Source of the DNA: Diprion similis | Taxonomy: Eukaryota; Arthropoda; Insecta; Hymenoptera; Diprionidae | Direction: 5' to 3' | DNA length: 64,000 nucleotides | Assembly: GCF_021155765.1 (NCBI RefSeq) | Contig: NC_060107.1 | Location: 18,338,501-18,402,500, forward strand | In this document: one piece after another, positions 19,185 through 37,924 of the stretch | How the letters are laid out: each line of letters begins with the position of its first letter | Position numbering within the stretch: the first letter of the stretch is position 1 | Notes under the pieces: generated by a model | Database searches by the model: none | What the model was told of the DNA's origin: nothing | The model's input: the letters and a program-made list of their open reading frames with translations, nothing else | Position numbers and translations under genes: made by a program

Positions 19185-22100
19185 TCAATCATTGAAGGTT
19201 ATAGTTTTTAACAGGGATCCTTTGACACCTTCGGCTCGTTTTTCATCCTTATTCTCCCCCATCACTCTGAATGAGTTCAACTTCGCTCTCAAGACAATGA
19301 ATTCCACTATTATTTTTCCGTTACACTCATCATTCATCAAACCCAGAACTTTTTTGTTATCCAACGACATTCCATAGACGTTGTCAGGTGGATAATCGGA
19401 GGTATCAAATTTATCCAAGTCCTGTTTGATGCATTCGTAAATGTTGGGGACGGTGAAGTGATATATCGAACTATTCGTGTCAGTGTACATTAATTTCGCC
19501 TGATGCCCAAATTTCGTTTCAATATACTTGCAGTGAAAATCGTAGATGAAGGTCTTCGCAAGTTCTAAAATGGAGAAACATGCATACAATGGTTTGTTGA
19601 ATATGACTGTCGTTCTACGCAATTTAACTATTATCATTGTGACGAGGGGTGAACCTCGCACCTAGTTGGGGAGAGCGGAGGGAGACGAGAGACGAGGGAG
19701 AAAGAGTGCACGCGTCTGAGTCGTGAAGAACAATTATCGGGCGTATATTTTCTTGTCCCCCGAGGGGCCTTAAAAACTGAATTACAGAGCGTGGTCCCAC
19801 GTGGCGGCCGGTCACGCCCCGGCCGATTAGCGTGTACTTAAATCTAATTCCTTAAAACTACGGATGATGTATAACTGATGGTGTGGTTGAGAGGGTGTGT
19901 GTGTGAGTGTGTGGGTATGTGGGGTGTGTGTGTGTGGAAGGAAGAGATCTGAGGAGGATGTCGTGGTGCGATGCGGTGACGGGAGGAGTGGGTGATTAGC
20001 GTGGGGTTGCACAGAGGAGCAAGTACGGATCAGCTGACCTTTTCTCTAACGTGGCGGTGGCGTCGTCGATGCGTTCGTCTTGGCCGGCGGTTGTCAGAAG
20101 AGTGACTTCTCCGGCCGGCCCGGCGCGTCTTCGGGTGCGCCCGGGCCGGTTCGGCATTGTTCGGCCCCGCTCCGCGGGTTTGGGGCTTATTGTGACGTGC
20201 ACGCGGGGTGCAACGTCACATCATATCTTTATCAAAGATTGTACAACTGTGGAAAATTTGGTTTGGCTATAGTAGCTCTAGCACCGTATCTTCCATCCCA
20301 TTTCGTGATCACCCTGACATCTCTATACTTCCTAACATTTTCCATTGTCTTACCGAAAACTGCGTTGTTCATCAGTTTGCAGAAGTTTTTTTCGAATTCA
20401 TTGTTTAATTTTTTGCGTAAGTCTGCATTTAAATCTATGTACTTTTTGAGCCACGGTGTTTGTCTGAAGTTTCAAACTCTATGAACTTTAGCTAGTTTCA
20501 AACCTAATTCTAAGCATTGTTTCAAGATGCGGTAATGAACAACGTAATTTTGCTTGGAAAGTAGCGTGGTCGTCAATTTCGGCTGCTCACTTTCTGAGTT
20601 GGGAGGTATGTAGTGTTCCGGACACAGTGGTAAATCTTTATGCATTTCATGCAATTCCTCGGGATATTCCAAATCTACCTCTATTATGTAGCCAAACTCC
20701 GCCTCGTCTGTGATGGCAGAAACATCGAATTGTCTGAAATCTAATATCCATTCGAAAGAACTGCATGGCAGAGCAAAGCTCATAGCCGCGCCGTACGAGT
20801 TGTTAACGTCGAAGTACATGAGATAAGACTCTTCGAGCGCTGGATTGAAAGCATCTCTCATGTATCTATTGATAGCCTTTGCATATCGATTAGAGCATTG
20901 GGACACACCACCTCGAATACCTTTTTCTATAAACATAAGCATATCTCTGTCAGTGAGAAGCTCGAGTTCGATACCGGTACATTTCAACATTGCGTCAAAC
21001 GAAAGTCCGGGCGCTGTAAAATAATGTAACTGGTCCAGGTTGTATGTTGCATAAAAATTTTGTCGAAAGTTTTCAAAAACGTCAGCCAACAGAAAAACAT
21101 TAGTTTGCAAATATAAGTCTGAATATTCCATCAACGTTTTAAGGTTAAAAGCTTGCCAAACTTTACACGCGTGTGCGTAATCGTTATCCGAAATATCTTG
21201 GTTGTTTAATTTTGAATAAAATCTTTCTTTAGGTGGTAACTTTACGTCCTCGAGCTCCTCCCAACCATCCATGTACTCGTACGGAAAAATACCTTTCCTG
21301 GTTAATAACTCGAATTTTTCAGAGCTTGTGCAAAATTTACGTGTAATTGCTTTTTGATTATCATTCAAATATGTTACCAATTTTTCGAGACTGCTGGGCA
21401 TAAAACGGAACGAATCTAGAAATCTCAACTTTATATCTGTCCCCTTTACATGTTTTGTGAACGAAATGTACTTCTCTTTGTTCATGGGTAGAAGCTGAAT
21501 AGTACCCTAAAAAGTTGTGGTCAATGCTTTAATCAAAAAATGCGAATCGTAACCCGACAGATTGTGGAATATCACTGGGATAGTATGCGAGTTTTGATAA
21601 TTAAGATTACAGCTTTGATGCGCAGGACCACGGTACTTTCCTGTGAAATGACAGTGATCACGGTGTTTCACAAATATGACATACCTTTGATAAATTAAAT
21701 TCGTTAATTTGATTGAAGTTCAGCGACTCCATAGGTACAATAGTTTTGAAATACGTTTCTAACGAGTGTGCCAATTCCTCCAACTCGTTCACAAACCATT
21801 CGATGCAGGTCTACCCGAGGTTAATTTTGAACTTTGAAATGGAATCGTCAAAGGTGCAATGCTATACTGTAAGGAATATGATTTTGGTAAATTGTTCTAT
21901 TTTCTGACACTTGAATGTTAGTAGCTTGCAACAAGCATTCTATATCCGCGTAAATACAGAACAGAACGGTTTCTTTGTGCTTAAAATTTTCGAATTTCAA
22001 AATCTTTTCCTCTTCCTCGGGTAAAACAACTTTGTTCTCGTTTAAACTCATGCAATAAACTCTATGGTTTGCCAAACATCTCTCAGATTGGAAGTGCATC

Positions 22101-25721: not shown

Positions 25722-25725
25722 ATAT
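25722..25725. repeat. Target-site duplication (left) of the gypsy element
   Basis: ATAT immediately before the left LTR, matched by ATAT at 33504-33507 after the right LTR. The copies flank a clean insertion into the TNP2-like frame. Confidence 0.9.
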
Positions 25726-26009
25726 TGTTACAAAGGATAAAATCACCCGTTTTACCCCCTTTTCTAATGATCTAGTAGTCGACATGTGACGCAAGAAAAC
25801 TAAGTCTTCTTATGTCATCAAATGAATAAGGTTGCTGCGTCAACCGCTATTATTGTAAAAACAGATCTGTTTCAGACTTTGAACTGATAACACGTTCTTT
25901 ACCCCAAATACATTTTTCTCAAAGCATATTTCTCATTTAGCGCCTTTTAATTGCTCACCTAACTAAGCTTCTTACCCTCGTTTTATTCGTTACACCAAAA
26001 AGTGTAACA
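25726..26009 (+). repeat. Left LTR of the gypsy element
   Basis: 284 bp, beginning TGTTACAAAGG and ending AAGTGTAACA, so the ends are inverted TGTTAC/GTAACA. It is identical to the right LTR except at 25965 (A versus G). It should contain the promoter and poly(A) signals of the element; I do not assign a TATA box. Confidence 0.97.
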
Positions 26010-26029
26010 CTGGTGTCAGAATCGGGATT
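26010..26029 (+). promoter_or_regulatory. Primer-binding site, tRNA-Leu type
   Basis: TGGTGTCAGAATCGGGAT follows the LTR after one base. Its complement ends TGACACCA, the 3' end seen in tRNA-Leu species, so reverse transcription is probably primed by tRNA-Leu. The exact isoacceptor is not determined here. Confidence 0.75.
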
Positions 26030-26073: not shown

Positions 26074-27653
26074 ATGAGTGTCAGTCGTTCGACCCGCTCA
26101 CGCCGCCGGGAAAGTTGTGGAGATAGCCCCTCACTGAGAGGAGACCTACAAGTTCCCGAGCCAACTTTTGCGGCTCCAGAAGCTGCACCGACGGTGACCC
26201 CTGTTACAACACCTTCGACGCCCACCGTCACCGCTTTAGACCTTCTGAAGGTCCTTCAGGCTCAACAAGAAACAGCTGAGAGACAACGAGAAGCTGCTGA
26301 ACGACAACGTGAAGCAGCTGAACGTCATCAGCAGCATCTGATGGATCTTCTACAGGAACAACAAGAACAGCGTCGACTGGATCGCGAGGCCCAGACACGC
26401 TCAGAAACACAAATCATCGAGCTATTCCAATCCACAGTGTCGGCTCTTCAAGCTAAAAATCAAGCTCAGGAGTCTGGAGAACCGGTCGCTACTCCCAGAG
26501 TTTCCCCGGTACCCACTCCCAGGATGGTTCCTATCCCGACACCCCGGACTTCTCCTCGCCAGATCTTTTCGGATCAGGCTCCCCAGGATTCAAGGTCTGT
26601 CCCTTTTATTAGAGAACTTGACTGTTCTCCGATTTCGAGACCTAGAATAATAACCGAGACCTACTTTCCCGAGCCACCATCAAATGCTCAACCTCATTTC
26701 CCACAATCAAATCAAATAGATAATCAGAGAGTATTCCAAGTCCCCTCTGTGCGTTAAAACCGCCTATTTTTGACGGAAAAATTCCGTGGGCAGAATATGA
26801 AAGACAATTTAATACAATTGCTAGACATAATCAATGGGACTCCGCCATGAAAGCTCATAGCCTTGCCTCTTGTCTTAGAACGCCAGCTTTGAATGTATTG
26901 ACAGCTTTGTCAGAAGAAGAAATTTCTGACTTCGAAAAGCTCAGCTCCGCGTTGAAATTAAGATACGGTAATGATCATTTGACAAAATTATATACTGCTC
27001 AATTACAAACTAGAAGACAAGGACGAGACGAAGACCTTGCCTCTCTCGGACAAGACATAGAGCGACTGTCGCGAATAGCTTTGCCAGACCACGAACCGTC
27101 ACGTAATATTTTAGCGACACAAGCTTTTTTAAACGCTATTAACGACCCGGAAGTTAAAATGGCCGTTGGAACGTCGGGTTTAACTTCCTTACGAGAGGCA
27201 ATGGCCAAAGCTCTCGAGGTGGAGGCCATGCGAAAACAATATTTTGGAGCGAGCAGACTCCGCCAAGTACAGGTGGATAATAACACCTCTATAGAAAAGA
27301 GAGGTGGTCGCTCGGAAGAGACCGAGTCTCATAACCCGAAAAATAATAAAAATTACCATAATAATAGAAATTTTAAAGATAAGAATAGTCGCGGTTCTTC
27401 TCAGAACTACATTAAAAGACCTCAGTACGTCAATGACAGAGTAGACAATAGATTTACTACCCTCACTTGCTTATTTTGCAACCAAAAAGGCCATGACGCC
27501 AATCACTGCTTCGCGTTAAAACGCAAAGCAGAGACACAGACGCAAAGCTCAAATTCAAACGCTAATAATTGGCGAAATAGTAAAGTAGCCAGGGAAGATA
27601 GTCATCAGAATTCTAATCCCGACACCTCGACCATGGCTATCTCAAAAAACTAG
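26074..27653 (+). pseudogene. Gag of the gypsy element, with one frame break
   Basis: The start ATG at 26074 follows the leader. The first frame runs to a TAA at 26755-26757 and encodes a Pro/Gln-rich matrix-like part with a long coiled coil (repeated AERQREA units). The capsid part continues in the -1 frame from about 26745, recognisable by KPPIFDGKIPW...YERQF, and ends with a CCHC zinc knuckle (CLFCNQKGHDANHC, near 27475-27516) and a basic tail, stopping at TAG 27651-27653. A single-base loss near 26750 explains the break best; a sequencing error is possible. The stop is preceded by the slippery site for Pol. Confidence 0.85.
27644..27650 (+). promoter_or_regulatory. Programmed -1 frameshift site between gag and pol
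   Basis: The heptamer A AAA AAC stands in the gag frame as TCA AAA AAC directly before the gag stop TAG. Slipping back one base opens the pol frame (CTC AAA AAA CTA GAT), which is free of stops to 31039. This is the X XXY YYZ arrangement used by several retroviruses. I did not define a downstream pseudoknot. Confidence 0.85.
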
Positions 27654-30600
27654 ATTCAGATGATTTAGGAGGGCGAAAATCATCGCAGGTTGTTAGAGTA
27701 GAAAGCCCTTTTGCAACTCAGTTTTTACTAAGGAGTTTAAGACAGTCTGGTCTTTACGCACGCGGAACTGTCAATGGCGTTGACTGCCTCTGGGTAATTG
27801 ATACCGGAGCAGAGGTAACCGTTGTTCGGTCGGATCTTTTAAAATCTGACGACCAGACTGTTCCCTCTTTATCTTTGCGAACAGCCACTGGAGAGACGAC
27901 CCCGGTTTTGGGAGAGGTTATCGTGCAGATTAACCTCTTCGGATGTATCGACTCTCCACACAAGGTTTTTGTCGCAGATATCGAGGATGAAGGTATTTTG
28001 GGTTTAGATTTCCTCACAGCTCACGATTGTGTGATTTCCACCAAGAGGAATTCTCTGACGTCTAACAGCCGCGAAATCCCTCTGTGCTCAAAGAAAAGAA
28101 GAGTGTACTGGACTCCTCCAAGAATACGAGAAGTAGAACTCTCCAAAGACAATCATCAAAATCTGCTCCCTTCACATCTAGAAAATCTTTTTGAAAAATC
28201 GTCGACCACGCTGGATTTACAACAGAAGGAATCCTTTAAATCTGTTTTATTTAAGTACGCAGATTCTTTTGCAGTAAACAGCGGAGACAAGGGGAGATGT
28301 ACGTCGGTAAAACATAAAATCGACGTCGGAAACAATCCTCCAATTAAACAAGCTCCCCGGAGACTCGCTCTCAACGGCAGAGAAGAGGTGAAGAAACTCG
28401 TTGAAGATATGTTGACCAACGACGTAATCGAGCCTTCTTCCAGTCCCTGGGCTTCTCCGATCGTCCTGGTCAACAAAAAGGACGGCTCCAAGCGATTTTG
28501 CATAGACTACAGGAAGCTGAACGACATAACCAAGAAGGACTCCTATCCTCTCCCCAGAATCGACGAAACGCTCGATCTGATTGCTGGCGCGACCTGGTTC
28601 AGTACCATTGATCTTCAAAGTGGCTACTGGCAGGTTGAGATGGATCCCCTGGACAAGGAAAAGACAGCTTTCGTCACAGGACTAGGAGGATTATGGCAAT
28701 TTAAGGTAATGCCTTTTGGCTTAAGTAACGCCCCGGCTACCTTTGAACGGATGATGGAGACTGTTCTCCAAGGACTCACAGGAAAAATTTGCCTCGTTTA
28801 TTTGGACGACATAATCGTTTTCGGGAAAGACTTTGAAGAAGAAGTGTACCACCTCGAACAAGTCTTCTCCAGGTTAAAACAAGCAGGCCTAAAGATGAGT
28901 CCAAAGAAATGCCATCTGTTCCAGAAAGAAGTCAGCTTCCTCGGTCACATAGTCTCCGCTGAAGGAGTGAAGACCGATCCCTCCAAGATCGAAAAGGTCT
29001 CTGCTTGGCCGACACCGACGAACAAAGAGCAAGTTCAGAGCTTTTTGGGTCTCTGCACTTACTACAGAAGATTTGTAAAAGGTTTCGCCACGATAGCCAA
29101 ACCCCTCCATCGTCTCACAGGAATCAAGATTCCATTCGATTGGACTCCGGAATGCGAAGAAGCCTTCAAGAAATTGAAAGAAAATCTTACTTCTTCCCCG
29201 ATTTTAGCCTATCCAGAGGTCGAACTTCCTTTTATTTTAGATACAGACGCCTCTTTGTCAGGGATAGGTGGAGTCTTGTCACAGATTCAGGAAGGTCAGG
29301 AGAGAGCGATTAGCTATTACAGCAGAGTCCTTAGTAAAACCGAGAGGAACTATTGTGTAACTCGTAGAGAACTCTTAGCTGTTGTTAAAACCGTAGTCCA
29401 CTTTCATCATTATTTGTACGGGAGGAAATTCTTGATTAGAACAGACCATGCTTCTTTAAGGTGGTTACTTTCGTTTAAATCCCCCGAAGGTCAGGTAGCT
29501 AGGTGGATTGAGAGGCTCGGACAGTACGATTTCGAAATTCGTCATCGAGCAGGTTTACAACATGGAAACGCTGACGCTCTTTCTCGAAGACCCTGCGAAG
29601 AAACGACAGATTGTAGGCAATGTATTCGCCTTAAAAAATACAGAGATCCTCCTCCTACAATACGAAAGATTTCTCTTGGAGAAAACCTCGAAGATTGGAA
29701 AAGATCTCAACAAGAAGATTCTACTCTGTCTCAGGTTAAATCTTGGAAAGAAACACAAATTCGCCCAGACTGGCAAGAAATATCCTCAGCTGAGTCTGAC
29801 GTCAAAATTTACTGGGCTCAATGGGACTCTATTCTTTTAATAGACGGAATATTATACCGCAAATGGGAATCCGCAGACTTGAAAGAGATCAAGTGGCAAT
29901 TTTTGGTTCCCAGAAATCGAGTTCCAGAAATTCTTGCTCTTTACCACGATTCTCCTGCAGGTGGACACTTTGCCTCGAATAAAACTTTAGGCAAGATACG
30001 CGATCGTTATTTTTGGCCACGATGTCGTGCCGACGTAGAAGACTGGTGTCGGAGATGTCAAGTTTGTACGTCGAAGAAAGGACCTCGAGATAAAGGACAA
30101 AGCTCTCTCCAAGTTTACAACGTGGGAGCTCCTTTCGAGAGGGTAGCAATGGATATCCTTGGTCCTCTTCCTATAACCTACAGTGGGAATAAATACGCCT
30201 TAGTCATCGCTGATTATTTTACCAAGTGGCCCGAAGTAATTCCACTCGCCAGTCAGGAAGCCTCTACCGTAGCTCAGGCGTTCGTAAAAGAATTTATCTG
30301 TAGACACGGAGTACCTCTAGAAATACACACTGATCAGGGCCGAAATTTTGAGTCAAGCTTAATGAAAGAAGTTACTCAAATTTTAGGGGTTAGAAAAACT
30401 CGTACTACTCCCCTCCATCCTCAGTCTGACGGCATGATAGAACGTCTGAATAGGACTTTACTCCAATATTTGTCGTCCTTCGTAGAGCAGAATCAGAGAG
30501 ATTGGGACACCTGGATTCCTTTTTTCCTCCTGTCTTATAGATCTGCGATTCACGAGACGACAAAACAGACGCCCGCTTGTATGCTTACGGGGAGAAATCT

Positions 30601-31039
30601 TCGACTCCCGTCAGATTTAGAGAAAGGCCCTATTCCCGTGCAAACTCAACCTCAGACAGATTATGCCTCTGATTTACAACAACGCCTAGAAGAAATTCAT
30701 AATTTTGCAAGAGAAAGAATTTCTATGGTTTCAGATAAATTAAAAGCTCGCTACGATATACGAGCTAGAGATTTAAAATTTAATCCCGGAGATTCTGTCT
30801 GGCTTTTCCAACCTAGAAGACAGAAAGGAAAATGTCCAAAACTCCAACGAAACTGGGAAGGTCCATATTTAATAGTTAACCGGATCAACGATGTCGTTTA
30901 CAGGATCCGAAAAACGCCTCACTCTAAAGAAAAGGTCGTACACCTGGACCGTCTAGCTTCGTTCGAGGAACACACTCGAACGGAATCACCCGGACCTGGA
31001 ACATCCTCCCAGGTTAGACCACCTTTGAATCAACCCTGA
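27650..31039 (+). CDS. pol: Pol polyprotein of the gypsy element (PR-RT-RNaseH-IN)
   Basis: About 1130 codons, made as a Gag-Pol fusion through the -1 frameshift; it has no start of its own. The order is aspartic protease (VIDTGAEVTVV, near 27796), reverse transcriptase with FSTIDLQSGYWQ and the catalytic YLDDIIVF (near 28798), connection/RNase H beginning FILDTDASLSGIGGVLSQ (near 29231), integrase with an HHCC zinc domain (HDSPAGGHF...CRRCQVC, near 29947-30066), and a DDE core with Asp in AMDILGPL, Asp in HTDQGRNF and Glu in GMIERLNRT. A GPY/F-like module (WEGPYLIVNRI) closes the integrase. No internal stops are seen and all catalytic residues are present. It ends with TGA, 37 bases before the kinase frame opens. 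Confidence 0.95.
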   Translation, partial: LDSDDLGGRKSSQVVRVESPFATQFLLRSLRQSGLYARGTVNGVDCLWVIDTGAEVTVVRSDLLKSDDQTVPSLSLRTATGETTPVLGEVIVQINLFGCIDSPHKVFVADIEDEGILGLDFLTAHDCVISTKRNSLTSNSREIPLCSKKRRVYWTPPRIREVELSKDNHQNLLPSHLENLFEKSSTTLDLQQKESFKSVLFKYADSFAVNSGDKGRCTSVKHKIDVGNNPPIKQAPRRLALNGREEVKKLVEDMLTNDVIEPSSSPWASPIVLVNKKDGSKRFCIDYRKLNDITKKDSYPLPRIDETLDLIAGATWFSTIDLQSGYWQVEMDPLDKEKTAFVTGLGGLWQFKVMPFGLSNAPATFERMMETVLQGLTGKICLVYLDDIIVFGKDFEEEVYHLEQVFSRLKQAGLKMSPKKCHLFQKEVSFLGHIVSAEGVKTDPSKIEKVSAWPTPTNKEQVQSFLGLCTYYRRFVKGFATIAKPLHRLTGIKIPFDWTPECEEAFKKLKENLTSSPILAYPEVELPFILDTDASLSGIGGVLSQIQEGQERAISYYSRVLSKTERNYCVTRRELLAVVKTVVHFHHYLYGRKFLIRTDHASLRWLLSFKSPEGQVARWIERLGQYDFEIRHRAGLQHGNADALSRRPCEETTDCRQCIRLKKYRDPPPTIRKISLGENLEDWKRSQQEDSTLSQVKSWKETQIRPDWQEISSAESDVKIYWAQWDSILLIDGILYRKWESADLKEIKWQFLVPRNRVPEILALYHDSPAGGHFASNKTLGKIRDRYFWPRCRADVEDWCRRCQVCTSKKGPRDKGQSSLQVYNVGAPFERVAMDILGPLPITYSGNKYALVIADYFTKWPEVIPLASQEASTVAQAFVKEFICRHGVPLEIHTDQGRNFESSLMKEVTQILGVRKTRTTPLHPQSDGMIERLNRTLLQYLSSFVEQNQRDWDTWIPFFLLSYRSAIHETTKQTPACMLTGRNLRLPSDLEKGPIPVQTQPQTDYASDLQQRLEEIHNFARERISMVSDKLKARYDIRARDLKFNPGDSVWLFQPRRQKGKCPKLQRNWEGPYLIVNRINDVVYRIRKTPHSKEKVVHLDRLASFEEHTRTESPGPGTSSQVRPPLNQP

Positions 31040-31060
31040 GAAAAGTAAAGAAACTTCGAG

Positions 31061-31076
31061 TCTTCTTGTTTTCTAG
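31061..31076 (+). promoter_or_regulatory. Predicted 3' splice site for the kinase mRNA
   Basis: The run TCTTCTTGTTTTCTAG is a strong polypyrimidine tract and AG. Its TAG is also the last in-frame stop before the kinase frame, so the open frame begins exactly at the first exon base (31077), codon-aligned. A phase-0 donor upstream is required. One possible donor is after the second gag codon (26079), but its match to consensus is weak. Confidence 0.65.
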
Positions 31077-31757
31077 TCTTTGATTGATTGGGAATATAAC
31101 CTTCCCTTCGGAATTTCACTCCATAAGAAGAAGTCACTTTCTATTATCATCGAAGGGAATATCGGTTGCGGGAAGACAACCTTTACTAAAAGATTCTTGT
31201 CGGACCCTCAGGTTTGCACCCTATTAGAACCCCTCGATCAGTACCGTGATGTTGCCGGAGTCAACTTATTACAATTGATGTATGAAGACCCAATTAGATA
31301 TTGCTACCAGTTCCAGCATCACGTTCAACAAGTTATGTACGATAGACATCTTCTTTTAACCTCTCGGCCTGTCAAAATTATGGAAAGGTCGATGTTTAGC
31401 GGCGATTGTTTTATCGAAACTCATCGCAGGTTAGGAAATCTTCGAGATTTCGAGGCTCATCTACTCAGAAAAAATTCCGCTCTTCTCATTCAAGCGTTCG
31501 AACTCGGAGTAGATTTAATAGTTTATTTGCGAGTTTCCCCAGAAACCTCTTTTGTTCGGGTTAATTCTCGTGCACGCAAGGAAGAAACAGAGATTCCTCT
31601 GCAATTGCTTAGAACTATTCATGAAGTTCATGAAGATTGGTTAGTTAGAGGCATTTTTTCTTCCTTACCTGCCCCCGTGATAGTTATCGATGCAGAGAAT
31701 ACAACTGAACAGATCTATTTAGATTTTACAGAAAGACTACTCTCCAATCTCTACTAA
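31077..31757 (+). CDS. Deoxynucleoside kinase in the env position of the gypsy element
   Basis: An open frame of about 226 codons of the dNK/TK2/dCK/dGK family, which transfers phosphate from a nucleoside triphosphate to deoxyribonucleosides. Counting TTG 31080 as residue 1: P-loop EGNIGCGKTT (25-34), catalytic Glu 50 in LLEPLDQYRDV, substrate-contact Gln 79 in YQFQHH, MERSMFS with Arg 103, lid Arg 160/164/166 with EE 168-169, and the family signature IHEVHEDWL (180-188). Length fits the family (insect dNK about 250). No ATG lies before the P-loop, and the frame opens at a splice acceptor, so translation probably starts in an upstream exon. It lies between pol and the polypurine tract, within the LTRs, so it is part of the element. 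It would raise dNTP supply for reverse transcription (inference). Substrate range cannot be read from the sequence. Confidence 0.93.
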   Translation, partial: SLIDWEYNLPFGISLHKKKSLSIIIEGNIGCGKTTFTKRFLSDPQVCTLLEPLDQYRDVAGVNLLQLMYEDPIRYCYQFQHHVQQVMYDRHLLLTSRPVKIMERSMFSGDCFIETHRRLGNLRDFEAHLLRKNSALLIQAFELGVDLIVYLRVSPETSFVRVNSRARKEETEIPLQLLRTIHEVHEDWLVRGIFSSLPAPVIVIDAENTTEQIYLDFTERLLSNLY

Positions 31758-31801
31758 TTAACACAATAACAAAGAACATATGAAATTTTATTTTATTTTA
31801 T

Positions 31802-32273
31802 TCAAAGATCTTTTAAAATATGGGATATTTCCATGATTTTTTTTATCGAATCTTTAACCTCCTCACAAGATTCACACATATTAGTATTTCTTTCCAAGGT
31901 GATTAGTTCCTCATCACAATCCATACATTTTGGTCCATCTCCTCCAAAAGTGATATGAATACATAGTTCTTTAATTTCCTCTATTGGAACTTCGAAATGG
32001 AAACTATAAAAGAAAAATTTTTGAAGTATTGAAAGATGAAAAATCCTTATTCTTTTGAGAATTTGCCTTCAAGACTTACAATCTTAATAAGCAGCGTCGA
32101 CACCTTATGCCGCATTCCCTCCGAACATGAAAAGCATTTAGTTGCCCACATTTTAATTTAGCCCATTCTTCTGTGAATTTGGTTGCTATAATCTCAGCAG
32201 AAATTTCGTTGAAATCGGAAATTGAAAATTTTTTTACTAAAATAGCGGCGTTAATGAAATTATGTCTCGACAT
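31802..32273 (-). CDS. Antisense two-exon Cys-rich small protein inside the gypsy element
   Basis: On the minus strand, exon 1 is 32273-32080 (194 nt, from ATG) and exon 2 is 32003-31802 (202 nt, to TGA), separated by a 76-nt intron with a canonical GTAAGT donor and a TTCTTTTATAG acceptor. The phases match and give 131 residues. Cysteines occur as CGIRCRRC at the end of exon 1 and as KCMDCDEE...NMCESCEE in exon 2, i.e. CxxC-x13-CxxC, which suggests zinc binding. AATAAA directly follows the stop (about 31800-31785 on the minus strand). It is convergent with the kinase, the stops lying 44 bp apart. I do not recognise the family. A regulator of the element, or a gene captured with the kinase, are possibilities. 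The intron-preserving antisense orientation means it was inherited intact through the genomic RNA. Confidence 0.65.
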
Positions 32274-33207
32274 TTTTCGGCAGACTGGAGGATTCAAGTT
32301 TTGTTTTGAAGAAGCTTTTGTTCTCGCGTCGGTTTTTGTTTTCTTCTAGAAGATTCTTCTCATAAATCGAGTTTTGTATCAGATTGGCTCTGATTTCTTT
32401 GTGGTTTGAACAGAGCCGCGATTGTTATTTTTCATGGTCGATAAGCGATTATTTGATTTTCACATTTTTCTAACCCATGTGTCAGTTTTTGTCAGTACTT
32501 TTTCAGGTTGTTTTATGACATAACCTGATTTTCCTTCACCTTCTCCTGGAATTTGAGGATGACTGAAGGCCCCGATTTTAAAGAAACACTCAACGATAAT
32601 CCAGATAAGATCGTTTATTTTCTCTTTTAAAAAATAATAAAATTTATATGATCCGTGCTTTTCTCAAATTCACTTAGCGAATTCGGATTGGTCTGCCTTC
32701 ACTCACGTTTGTCCTCCCAATCTAGGGTGTGCAGTTTCCGAAAGAATTCGGGACCGGCTCGCCTCCTTTCCTCTCCCTCGTTCCCGAAGGTTGAGAAGAA
32801 GCCCTAAAAACCTCCTAAGGCCACCGTCGATTTGGACTTCTGTTGGAACCTCTCCTATTTCCGTGGTCCTTTTCCCGGACCATTTTGACCAAATTTGGAT
32901 TTTCCTGATTTCCGGAATTTGGAAACTAGCCGTTCCTTCGGATTTTACACGAAGCTATACACTACACACTTTTTACACTGACTTTTGTGAAAACACGGCA
33001 CATAAAAGTTTGAAAATTCAGTTCAATGCTCGACTATCTGCTCAAGGTTTTCTGTGGTTTACCTTGAGACTGTGGGCAAATGCCAGATAGCAGAAAGGGA
33101 GTCTTTGAATTTTTAGAGCCACAGCTCCGACTCACCTTCAAGCGTCGTATGCTAGATCAAGATCGTTATTGTTTTAATTTGTTCGAGTCGGGACGACTCT
33201 TTTCCTC
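32274..33207. other. 3' noncoding region of the gypsy element
   Basis: There is no convincing frame on the sense strand. It may hold the promoter of the antisense gene. Short open frames near 32791 and 33080 resemble nothing. Confidence 0.5.
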
Positions 33208-33219
33208 AGGGGGGAGTAG
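33208..33219 (+). promoter_or_regulatory. Polypurine tract of the gypsy element
   Basis: AGGGGGGAGTAG directly precedes the right LTR and would prime plus-strand DNA synthesis. Confidence 0.85.
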
Positions 33220-33503
33220 TGTTACAAAGGATAAAATCACCCGTTTTACCCCCTTTTCTAATGATCTAGTAGTCGACATGTGACGCAAGAAAACTAAGTC
33301 TTCTTATGTCATCAAATGAATAAGGTTGCTGCGTCAACCGCTATTATTGTAAAAACAGATCTGTTTCAGACTTTGAACTGATAACACGTTCTTTACCCCA
33401 AATACATTTTTCTCAAAGCATATTTCTCATTTAGCGCCTTTTAATTGCTCACCTAACTGAGCTTCTTACCCTCGTTTTATTCGTTACACCAAAAAGTGTA
33501 ACA
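33220..33503 (+). repeat. Right LTR of the gypsy element
   Basis: 284 bp, identical to the left LTR except at 33459. It is followed by the ATAT target duplication (33504-33507). Confidence 0.97.
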
Positions 33504-33976
33504 ATATTATGAAACAACTCGCCATGGTTAATCGTAAGGCCACTATTGTTGCTATCACTACTTTCATTGAAACTACCATCACGGAAACTATTCTGTGGAC
33601 TGGTTATATCTGGAGTATTATTATCGAGCTCTATTGATTCTAGTATCATAGCAGAATCAGCAGCAACAATTGGGTGTGCGAAAAAAAAATTTTTATCACC
33701 TCATTTATGCTAAAACAAAACATTGACCGTAAAATACAATAAATTTGAATGAATTTTTAATTATTGACCTTTCTTCAATTAAATAACGGGAATTTTATAA
33801 TCGCAAAAATTCGAACCGTGTCACGTGATTATGAAACGCATCACCATTGGAGGCCTGAGCCGATGACGTCATGATGTTACAGCCAAAAACGCGGCAGTCG
33901 ACGATACACAGCTTTCGAAGTTCTGTTAACAAGTTTCAATTATTATAAGTACTCAAACTACCACGTGTATGAAAAA

Positions 33977-35840
33977 ATGTGCGATACGGGTTTTGTCAAG
34001 GCAACTGCTAGTAATCTACCGACCATAGACATATTTATGGTCACAGAATTTCTAAAAGCAGATGATCGATTTAATGCTGCAGAAGTTCGGGGTGCCAAAG
34101 CATCAATGTAAGTCTCTGAGATGTGTAATTGTTAAAACTTTACCAACAAAATATCGTATGTTAATTGTAAAAATTAGTTTTAATAAAGTTTTTATTCTAT
34201 CACAGGGCATGTCGCGAAAGTTATGGAGATAAAGCTATAGGTTATGTACAGCTGAAGCGAGAAGGAAACATCTGCACCGTTAAACGTCGCGTATGTCCTG
34301 AACATAAAGTTCGAAGTAAGGCTTATGTGGCGACAATAACTATAAACGAAAAAGATAATGAAATTCAGAATGTCCAGTGTCATGATTGTGCTGCTGCGAC
34401 AGGTAAGAATTTACTTGTATAGTAATAATTAAGGTGGGGTTAACTTAGATTTTAAAATCATAGATGCTTTTTGCTGGAGTATTGCAATTTTGGGATTCAG
34501 TTGCATTATAGTACTTCCACTTTCCACGAACATTTATAAATATTCATTAATTTTGAAGTTATGGATTTAAAAGCATTCCTTTTTTATGCATTGATATAAA
34601 AATCTTTTCACAATGAATTTTTCATCGAAGCTACTTAGAATTTTCTTTGTTACCTTTCAAATGTATGATAAACCAAACGCAGAATGAACTTCTTGAAATG
34701 TTGTTTTTAAACTCATTTTGAACGTATGAATTTTTAAATGAAAAATATGAATTAGATCTCAAAGCATTTATAATTTTGCCGTGATATCAAATTGAACTCT
34801 ACTCATTTTTTGTTATATCATTTATTTCAATATGAAGGTGGATGTAAGCATGCCCTGGCATTCCTCATGTGGTTACATCGACGAAGCGAAGACCCTGCTC
34901 CTACAGAAGTGGAATGTTATTGGAAAAAATCTCGGTTATCCGGTGTAGGAAGTGCTATTAAATATATCGAATCGAAGGATCTAGGAAACCAAGACTCAAG
35001 ATCGGTGTTGAGTCATCCTCCAAATAATGAGACATTCTTGCAAAAAGTACTCGATATAGCCCAGGCGCAACAAATTGATGGCCAAATTTCAAGAATATCC
35101 TTTCAATTGATTGGTGAAAGAACCAGTAACTTATCAATGCACAGATTAGCTCTTCAGTTTTATTTACATGAATCTCCTCAATGTAAATCAGTAGGCGATT
35201 TTCTAACTCTTTGTACTAATGAAATGACGAAAGACTTGTGTGATGAAGCTCAAGTGATTACAAAAGAGCAAAGTAATTGCCCATTGTGGTACGATTTGAG
35301 ATATGGAAGAATCACAGCGTCTAAACTACACGAATCAGCTCACTGCAAGACAGATAATGGGTCACTTGTAAATCAAATTATTGGAGTATCCAAGATACAT
35401 GAAACAAATGCGATGCTACGTGGAAAGAAACTAGAAAAGGATGTGTTAGAGCAAATTCAAAGTCTATTGCAGACAAATATTCAAAATGCAGGACTTTTTC
35501 TCCTACCCGAATTTCCCATTTTGGGAGCATCACCTGATGGATTAACGAAACAATATATTGTGGAGATAAAATGTCCTATGAATGAAAAATCTTTCAACAG
35601 ATTTCTCTCCAATGGTGTAATCAATCCTCGCTGCATCGCACAAATGCAGCTACAAATGTTATTGACTGACAAAAAAAAGGATTATTTTGTGTTGCTGATC
35701 CATCCTTCGAAACTACCAAACAAGTTCATATGCAGTGGCTTGAATTCGAGGCAGCAGCAACACAAGATTTGATTCAAAAAGCTACATTATTTTGGACCAA
35801 TAATATATTTCCTAAGATAATGTCATCTGTACAGAAATAA
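33977..35840 (+). pseudogene. SWIM zinc finger / YqaJ-like nuclease protein of the ISL2EU element, C-terminal frameshift
   Basis: Predicted exons are 33977-34107, 34206-34402 and 34838 onward, with canonical sites and matching phases. Exon 2 contains CHDCAAATG, which joins GGCKHALAFLMWLHRR to complete the SWIM-type CxC...CxH finger. Exon 3 carries the YqaJ recombinase fold: WYDLRYGRITASKLHE, GASPDGL (Asp), VEIKCPM (Glu-x-Lys) and AQMQLQMLLT. The frame breaks near 35685: the literal frame stops at 35772, whereas the family-like C terminus (QWLEFEAAATQDLIQKA) continues one frame over to TAA at 35838-35840. In intact elements this exonuclease is thought to assist transposition. Confidence 0.8.
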
Positions 35841-36026: not shown

Positions 36027-37924
36027 TTACATTTTAATTATTGGAGATTGTAAATTAACTAATGCTGATGCGATGGTGATAACGTCATCAGTATAAGATA
36101 ACATACTGTGATTAATGACAGCATGTGGTTTCAGGAAATCGAATTCTCTCAATCTGCCAATGACTCTTTCCACGTGGATGCGCAAGCTGGCAATACGCTT
36201 TGTCTCTAACACTTCAGATTTTTCAGGTTTAACTGAAGACGATACACTGGGTGGTTTTAATAATTCACAATCTTTCATTGATAGTAAGCTCTGTATACTT
36301 TTACAGCCCCGGTCTGCCATCACACCACTATTTGCAGGAAGCTTATCTAATATACCACATTTTTCGAATAACAGCACATCTGAAATTCTACCTCCGTATC
36401 CGGTAGAAATATAGTTGATAAAGCCATCAGGCGAACAAGAAATCAAATATTTTAATGTATTTCACTTCTTATATTCTGACCAAGTCAGTGCCTGATTGAC
36501 AGGATCACTGGGCTTCTCAATTTGTATTTCAAGAGCGTCAACTATAGATCGAACATGACTATATGTACCTCTGAAAGCTATTGGTAAAATTTGTTTAACC
36601 GCGGTACGGTCCGGAAAAAAAATGAAAGTTTTCAACATATGTGCCAATATTGGATTTGTTTTTCTAAAAATAAAGGTTGCATTAGAAGTGGTCATACCAA
36701 ACTGTTCTCCCAGTCTCTCAAACGTGTCTTGCGTTCTAATTTTCATCAAGCATAATTTGATATTATCACTTTTAATTTTAGTATGCGAGCTAAGAATGTC
36801 CAGTAAAAAGGACCACTCATTCGGAACACCTAGGTACGACTTCATATTTATACTGATAAAATAGTTTGTGAGTTTTACAGCATCTGGAAATTTTTTCTGG
36901 GGACTATCTGAATTACTTGAATGGGATCCCTCTGTAGGCTCAAAATAATCAGTAGAACTGATAAATTCACTGACTGATCGTGAGACTGTACTTGATGACT
37001 TTAAATCAGTTTTTTGTGCTTTAATTTTTGGTATTAACTTGATAGGAGATGTTGCGCTATCCATAAGATTGGAAATTTTGATTGGCGAGGAACTCGTATG
37101 ACAAATCGATGGCATTATCTTACACATGGTAGCAATACTACGGTATCGTTTTCGAATATTAACTTGTACACCAATACTATGCTCAGTGGGGTTATACTCG
37201 GTTTGAGTTTGTGCATCCACTTTCACAGTCGCTGTGTCAAATATTCTGGAGTCGCTGACTAGATCACTATTAGAATTTATATCTTCCATAGATCTATCGA
37301 GGACTTCGTTCTCTCTTTGTAACTGTGCAAATGTGCTTGGTAGACTTTCAGAAGAGCAGGGTGGAATTTCAGCAGCTAACATTTCATTAATTTCATGCAA
37401 TCTTCTTCTTTTCTCTGCGACAGGTCGTGGAGGTGCATTTGCTGAACGTTTGCGGTTAGGTTGACATTCAAATTTATGTGGAACTGCAGATAATTTCATT
37501 CTCGCTGGACCTCCCTGATATGTATAATACAAATAGTTGTCCATATCTTCATGCAACTGCCCAAAAAATGAGTAACATTAGCTCTCACAAAAGTTTAAAC
37601 TTATTGTTATTGAGGTTATAAGTCTAGGATTTGATTTTTTTTTTGGCTAAATTTTTACATTCTTATATACTCGCGTTGTGAAATAAAACAGGCACGTGGG
37701 ATGATTTACTTTATATTGTAAGAAACTATACTTACATTGAAATGGTCTTCGCAGCAAAAGTAATTTGAAGCAGACTTGGGGTAATCACGACGTGCTGCAG
37801 CAAACCATTGTTTCCAACGCTTCACTTCTTTTGGCACTGTTACGAATACTTTTTCAGGGGTGCGTTTCGTAGTATTTTTGCACAAGGGCACAAAACACAC
37901 TCTATAAGTTTTTATTTTGCTCAT
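36027..37924 (-). pseudogene. THAP plus DDE_4 transposase of the ISL2EU element, one nonsense codon
   Basis: Exon 1 (37924-37736) starts with ATG and encodes a THAP zinc finger (CFVPLC...W..W...FCCEDHF). Exon 2 (from 37556) completes it, continues through an acidic/Ser-rich linker and a helix-turn-helix-like region (LGEQFGMTTSNATFIFRK), and enters the DDE_4 domain. An in-frame TGA at 36462-36464, after WSEYKK, interrupts the core. The same frame then runs on with SCSPDGFINYISTGYGGRISD, VMADRGCKSI (Asp) and RIHVERVIGRLREF (Glu) to 36027. Apart from that one codon the transposase looks whole. Confidence 0.85.

Follow-up and report, generated by a model that had tools for sequence, protein, structure and literature searches.

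A deoxynucleoside kinase gene in a Ty3/gypsy retrotransposon of the sawfly Diprion similis, apparently reached by double splicing from the gag start codon

A reading frame for a deoxynucleoside kinase (dNK) inside a long terminal repeat (LTR) retrotransposon raises the question of whether the enzyme belongs to the element and how a frame of this kind could be translated. The frame (positions 31077-31757) lies within a Ty3/gypsy element in a 64,000-nt stretch of the Diprion similis genome, the whole of which is called the window here (contig C3 of the 269-Mb genome). It matches the Pfam family dNK PF01712 (3.4e-40, residues 23-210, profile 1-187 of 203) and the Drosophila dNK (PDB 1j90; E 5.7e-45), and the P-loop, the catalytic Glu, the ERS Arg and the lid Arg and Glu are all found in the alignment. 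An earlier note on this DNA had described a complete dNK frame; the motifs it named are present, but no ATG precedes the P-loop, and for this reason 31077-31757 looks like an exon and not like a complete gene. A self-standing kinase gene was ruled out on the same ground, and plain readthrough from pol was ruled out by the pol stop at 31039 and by the different frames of pol and kinase.

The element itself is well delimited. Its two LTRs are 284 nt each, differ at one position and have the ends TGTTACA...TGTAACA, and an ATAT target duplication stands on either side, as the earlier note had claimed. When the flanks are joined without the element, they match a single other site, C5:3962760-3962999, over 240/240 nt at 98% identity; since the joined flanks match uninterrupted at this empty duplicate of the target, the whole unit entered as one insertion. 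The pol open reading frame (ORF) contains the domains RVT_1, RNase H, H2C2 and rve integrase, in the order reverse transcriptase, RNase H, integrase. A Pfam search of the two ORFs at the gag position found 0 families each at E 0.01, and because Gag thus matched no sequence family, the assignment to Ty3/gypsy rests on pol. These two ORFs are in different frames in the window copy, with the break behind the part used in the kinase message, and the copies L021, L022 and L041 have both parts in a single frame. The kinase follows pol, as had been noted before, but not directly ahead of the polypurine tract, from which it is separated by 1.45 kb that include an antisense gene. The stop-to-stop frames in 31757-33220 are all shorter than 150 residues and none is env-sized, an env-domain scan not having been made on them, and the env downstream of pol expected of errantiviruses was not found in this element.

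Translation from the gag ATG after removal of two introns (Table 1) would provide the kinase with a start codon. The spliced frame stays open from 173 Gag residues through one split codon and a 36-residue tail into the kinase, with both junctions in phase, and the protein would consist of the first 174 Gag codons, the integrase-derived tail and the kinase. The kinase frame begins directly after TTTTCTAG, and its first residues are conserved across subfamilies. Intron 2 was compared over 13 rows, which include close kin and represent, by our own count, five intron types apart from L026; its length ranges from 56 to 65 nt in all three classes modulo 3, and exon 2 ends in the right phase in 12/13 rows; the remaining row is L026, whose exon 2 is broken, and the script considered no acceptors other than those matching the phase of the kinase. 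The acceptors lie at the end of a pyrimidine-rich stretch in the compared tracts. For intron 1, the donor AG/GTCTGT is present in 9/10 copies examined beside the window (not in L029), and the frame from the gag ATG to the donor is open and in the right phase in L021, L022, L023 and L041, but not in the other six of the ten.

Copies lacking the introns provide a second line of evidence. L014 is without intron 1 and keeps intron 2, L030 is without both, and L042 is without intron 2, with all junctions at the splice bases. All three look as if they arose by reverse transcription of spliced RNA, in the manner of the spliced-RNA-derived copies described for human L1 (spliced integrated retrotransposed elements, SpIREs, in PMC5860796 as excerpted). 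A scan for the gag/integrase junction pattern, with up to 3 mismatches, returned 42 matches, of which one was exact (L014), 16 had the unspliced TACAGGATCC, and the remaining 25 look like chance (control 9). Indirect as the intron-less copies are, they indicate that the kinase is very probably reached by splicing out two introns, with the start at the gag ATG.

Whether this arrangement is a peculiarity of one copy was examined across the genome, where the kinase query gave 88 matches, ten of them full-length stop-free frames (at least 217 residues; own count). Among integrase loci of at least 63% identity, 41/43 are followed by a kinase match no more than 1.5 kb downstream, which bears out the earlier suggestion that the kinase is a trait of a gypsy family, and 20 of the 43 keep at least 180 kinase codons in one stretch. 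No kinase was found within 3 kb downstream at the more distant gypsy loci listed, whether at 46-48% identity (0/6) or at 40% and below (0/84). These integrase counts were set against all 88 kinase rows and were made on 139 rows, from which six second pieces of split copies were dropped; they draw on the best 137 of 761 candidates and cover other gypsy families in part. The distribution fits a single gain in this gypsy lineage, and the kinase is common to diverged subfamilies, at the env position.

The earlier note had proposed a dN/dS comparison across element copies, and its outcome points to purifying selection. Against the window, kinase dN/dS was 0.09-0.25 in 11/11 listed copies (Nei-Gojobori, own script; L023 was too close to the window to be listed), and across all listed pairs it was 0.06 to 0.58; many of the dS values lie above 1 and are rough, and the figures take in tip decay in copies that are broken. 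Reverse transcriptase pieces, compared with the window alongside, gave 0.03-0.15 and integrase pieces 0.08-0.18. Constraint on the kinase is clear, and weaker than that on reverse transcriptase. Altogether, the sequences describe an element with a kinase in its LTR unit that is common to many copies and subfamilies and under purifying selection, and the kinase is almost certainly a gene of the element.

The enzyme itself resembles the Drosophila melanogaster dNK (DmdNK) in family and catalytic residues. In an alignment with 1j90, through which the DmdNK numbering was transferred, the window kinase keeps the counterparts of DmdNK E52, Y70, Q81, R105, R169 and E172, as well as those of V84 and M88, and A110 is replaced by G (residue roles as given in the part of PMC11357392 consulted). 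DmdNK is a cellular gene, however, and the counterparts of its W57, T87 and W135 are changed in 6/6 aligned element kinases. Position 56, which corresponds to the base-stacking W57, is Y in 6/6 aligned element kinases and in the predicted protein P0005, and W in 38/38 other kinases; the element kinases and P0005 have V at 86, D or N at 110 and N at 133, where the other kinases have T (38/38), R (36/38) and W (38/38), respectively. An AlphaFold2 model gave a mean predicted local distance difference test score (pLDDT) of 90.5 and a predicted template modelling score (pTM) of 0.85 for the predicted fold, with low confidence for residues 1-15. The pocket residues suggest thymidine and deoxycytidine as substrates, and the element kinase is probably an active enzyme.

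On the question of origin, trees place the element kinases in a single supported clade together with P0005, with a long branch leading to it and the host gene outside. The approximately unbiased test did not reject grouping this clade with host genes of sawflies or Hymenoptera (p-AU 0.653; 0.238, 0.112, 0.138, 0.102), and because of this neither capture from this host nor capture from elsewhere can be claimed. P0005, found among protein-set hits of which the best 120 of 414 and the best 120 of 1489 were listed, is encoded on a 2459-nt contig, is 53% identical and is predicted to have a start methionine of its own; it shares Y56, V86 and N133 with the element kinases, with which it groups, and the element, or its kinase donor, may thus exist elsewhere. 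A pattern search of viral contigs for the kinase gave three matches, none of them a relative. Within the genome, L007 is a chimera in which a window-type kinase has the last residues of another subfamily, and in L029 and L034 a kinase resembling that of L027 is joined to a window-like pol, from which we infer that template switching moves the 3' module between copies.

The reading that we favour, with moderate confidence, is that of a selected accessory enzyme, fused to Gag, that would supply deoxynucleoside monophosphates (dNMPs) for reverse transcription and would be helpful without being essential in cis. In this account a Ty3/gypsy lineage acquired a deoxynucleoside kinase where env would lie and has maintained it by selection, and double splicing would join part of Gag and the integrase-derived tail to the kinase for translation from the gag ATG. 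The Gag part would bring the enzyme into or beside the particle; the kinase would phosphorylate deoxynucleosides to dNMPs, the cell would convert these to deoxynucleoside triphosphates (dNTPs), and reverse transcription would be less limited in cells with low dNTP pools. As a helper, the kinase could be lost or shared in trans, which would leave young copies without it. Of the separate components, a role of the kinase in dNTP supply has about an even chance of being correct, and packaging through Gag is proposed tentatively, at somewhat less than that.

A number of observations weigh against the accessory-enzyme reading. The same AG or AGG occurs on either side of each intron-less junction, which is also normal for splice junctions, and a microhomology deletion could account for any one of them taken singly; the case for splicing therefore rests on the three copies together with the phase. 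At 21 of the 43 related integrase loci no surviving kinase stretch reaches 180 residues, and another 2 lack a kinase match within 1.5 kb, one of these having a piece within about 3 kb or slightly more. The residues checked (P-loop G, G, K and T; E51, Y69, Q80, E103, R104, R165, R167 and E170) are all kept in only six of the ten full-length stop-free frames (own count), although the frame is then not decayed wherever present, the outcome that for the earlier note would have meant a one-off capture. L041, whose LTR pair has 1 difference in 287 and whose 250-residue reverse transcriptase piece is identical to that of the window, is a young, complete-looking copy with a decayed, shortened kinase piece. 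Seven loci have the integrase in a stop-free frame of at least 1,100 residues (own count), and while four of them have a full-length open kinase (including the chimera L007), one has a frame break near the kinase end and two have only pieces. Additionally, L035, L036, L039 and L040 are short young elements (LTR pairs with 1-2 mismatches, and one gap in L036) that contain gag and a kinase fragment without a pol match. The specificity of the kinase may also differ, given that Y replaces the W57 counterpart. The idea that the element needs its kinase found no support in copies such as L041, where a long open pol is accompanied by a decayed piece only; because young or pol-open copies keep only pieces, the kinase is seen as a helper that copies can lose or share. 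As a separate observation, six further genome matches cover the same kinase residues, 100-218, as the fragments in the four short elements.

The state of these copies could also mean that a kinase mRNA was captured once and has been carried along as a passenger, now decaying in most lineages and of no help to the element. About half of the related loci hold only pieces, young L041 has no intact kinase, and the element kinase has none of the host-gene introns (L037 matches exon by exon), as expected of mRNA capture; we nevertheless consider a passenger improbable, in view of a dN/dS of 0.09-0.25 between subfamilies with strongly different synonymous sites and of splice signals and reading phase retained across subfamilies, which would be unexpected for one. 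Similarly low is the probability of a Gag-Pol-kinase fusion in which splicing takes out intron 2 alone and the enzyme would reach the particle attached to the end of integrase. Removal of intron 2 alone does place the kinase in the pol frame, L042 is without this intron and its integrase matches the query from end to end (the copy has no reverse transcriptase region), and two predicted Diprion similis proteins span the integrase tail and the kinase, P0003 with the exact junction and P0004 with a later acceptor. Intron 1, however, seems to be removed too, judging from L014 and L030, and a kinase on each integrase tail seems burdensome; Gag-kinase and Pol-kinase forms may both exist.

An enzyme directed at the host cell or at competitors, by way of general nucleotide pools or of a defence built on nucleosides, rather than at the element's own reverse transcription, is a distant prospect: the changes at 56, 86, 110 and 133 in 6/6 aligned element kinases may mean another substrate, but there is nothing unusual in the catalytic residues or the V84/M88 pocket. 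That a host kinase gene was misjoined to the element by assembly, or that the arrangement arose by chance, is refuted for practical purposes, as the arrangement is repeated at 41 places on several contigs, an empty site is present and the host kinase gene is separate, split in exons, on C2; nothing was found in favour of an artefact. The coordinates of the element and its kinase are collected in Table 1, where we take the TGG one base after the 5' LTR to mark a possible primer binding site.

Table 1. Features of the kinase-bearing element in window coordinates.
Feature	Positions	Strand	Basis or remark
Target site duplication, 5' copy (ATAT)	25722..25725	.	
5' LTR, 284 nt	25726..26009	+	LTR pair comparison
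Possible primer binding site	26011..26028	+	TGG one base past LTR
Exon 1 of inferred kinase message	26074..26594	+	173 gag codons plus two bases; donor AAG/GTCTGT
Inferred intron 1, 4309 nt	26595..30903	+	Contains most of gag and pol; missing in L014, L030
pol ORF (reverse transcriptase, RNase H, integrase)	27875..31039	+	ORF list, domain search
Exon 2, 36-residue tail in pol frame	30904..31012	+	Acceptor TTTACAG/GATCCG, donor CCCAG/GTTAGA
Inferred intron 2, 64 nt	31013..31076	+	Not a multiple of 3; contains pol stop; missing in L030, L042
Exon 3, deoxynucleoside kinase, 226 residues plus stop	31077..31757	+	Pfam, 1j90 match, alignment, model
Antisense gene, exon 2	31802..32003	-	AATAAA overlaps stop
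Antisense gene, inferred intron, 76 nt	32004..32079	-	GT..AG, phase 2
Antisense Cys-rich gene, exon 1	32080..32273	-	ATG at 32273
Conserved 3' stretch; may contain the antisense promoter	32350..33190	.	Changes not codon-like
Polypurine tract ahead of 3' LTR	33208..33219	+	Read from sequence
3' LTR, 284 nt	33220..33503	+	LTR pair comparison
Target site duplication, 3' copy (ATAT)	33504..33507	.	

Behind the kinase, on the opposite strand, lies the antisense gene, whose predicted protein has 131 residues and three CxxC motifs and gave 54 exon-wise matches in its own genome. Relatives of its exons in diverged copies are 26-41% identical; a GT-AG intron of the same phase is found in L028, L029 and L033, with L026 and L034 departing from the pattern, and AATAAA starts within 12 nt of the stop in 10/11 copies, among them five near-identical ones, but not in L041. 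Differences between the window and L024 by codon position are 3/3/13 and 4/2/17 in the exons and 17/19/18 in the non-coding 3' stretch. The dN/dS was 0.11-0.28 for the 7 pairs separated by at least 35 differences; the 3 pairs with 9-10 gave 0.36-0.48. In L041 the antisense exon matches are stop-free despite the decayed kinase, and L030 retains the antisense intron stretch though both sense introns are gone, as it must if it derives from sense RNA. The gene was not seen in the 540-570 nt behind the kinase of L025, L027, L031 and L032. In Pfam the protein stayed below the cut-off (window best 0.13; L028 best 0.0059, HypA, 17.1 bits against a cut-off of 28.9), and in a large protein set one candidate shared words with it and none matched at E 1; distant relatives could be missed, because only that one candidate shared words. 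The antisense gene is a second accessory gene of the element, with no relative found in Pfam and the large protein set. A fuller scheme, in which a double-spliced Gag-kinase packed in the particle raises dNTPs at reverse transcription and the antisense gene controls it, would extend the accessory-enzyme reading, but we regard it as rather doubtful.

In the open-licence literature we found no report of a nucleoside kinase in an LTR retrotransposon. A close parallel, according to passages of PMC5408684, is provided by LTR retrotransposons of bdelloid rotifers, which have an enzymatic ORF3 (GDSL esterase, DEDDy exonuclease) and a dUTPase, and whose authors infer ORF sharing between element types. 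Like the sawfly element they have an enzyme gene at the ORF3 position, and the dUTPase likewise concerns dNTPs; the enzymes are other ones, however, the dUTPase lies inside pol between protease and reverse transcriptase, and those passages report no significant departure from neutrality for the ORF3s, as against a dN/dS of 0.09-0.25 for the sawfly kinase. Insect endogenous retroviruses, in the sections of PMC12992720 that describe them, also express an env-position 3' gene by splicing, and env splicing starts inside gag in the idefix subclade, as it would for the sawfly kinase. The sawfly element differs in that its 3' exon encodes an enzyme and in an additional short intron, whose removal would take out the pol stop. 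Drosophila MDG1-group sORF2 elements share with the kinase element the LTRs, an accessory gene and the lack of an Envelope, but the sORF2 product is a membrane protein that has been compared to cell-cell fusogens and, in the portion of PMC11952523 concerned, full transcripts are given without splicing evidence. A conserved antisense gene between pol and the 3' LTR is shared with the plant elements Retand, Grande and similar ones; as far as the extracts of PMC7264820 and PMC11963269 describe them, the plant proteins have a TRP28 domain or are unmatched, which by description sets them apart from the small two-exon CxxC protein of the insect, whose gene faces a kinase.

Elsewhere in the window, frames at 20472-21485 (-) and 34792-35772 (+) match type B DNA polymerase (PF03175) and YqaJ / viral alkaline exonuclease, and these frames around the insertion site are perhaps remains of a large DNA virus or a Polinton-like element. 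A frame at 36462-37556 (-) matches HTH_Tnp_4, the helix-turn-helix of DDE endonucleases.

The splice anatomy described here would represent a route by which a captured enzyme comes under the gag start codon. Discussion of whether dNTPs limit retroelements in animal germ lines has relied mainly on host factors that deplete the pools. If the element brings its own salvage kinase, the question of dNTP limitation would become testable from the side of the element.
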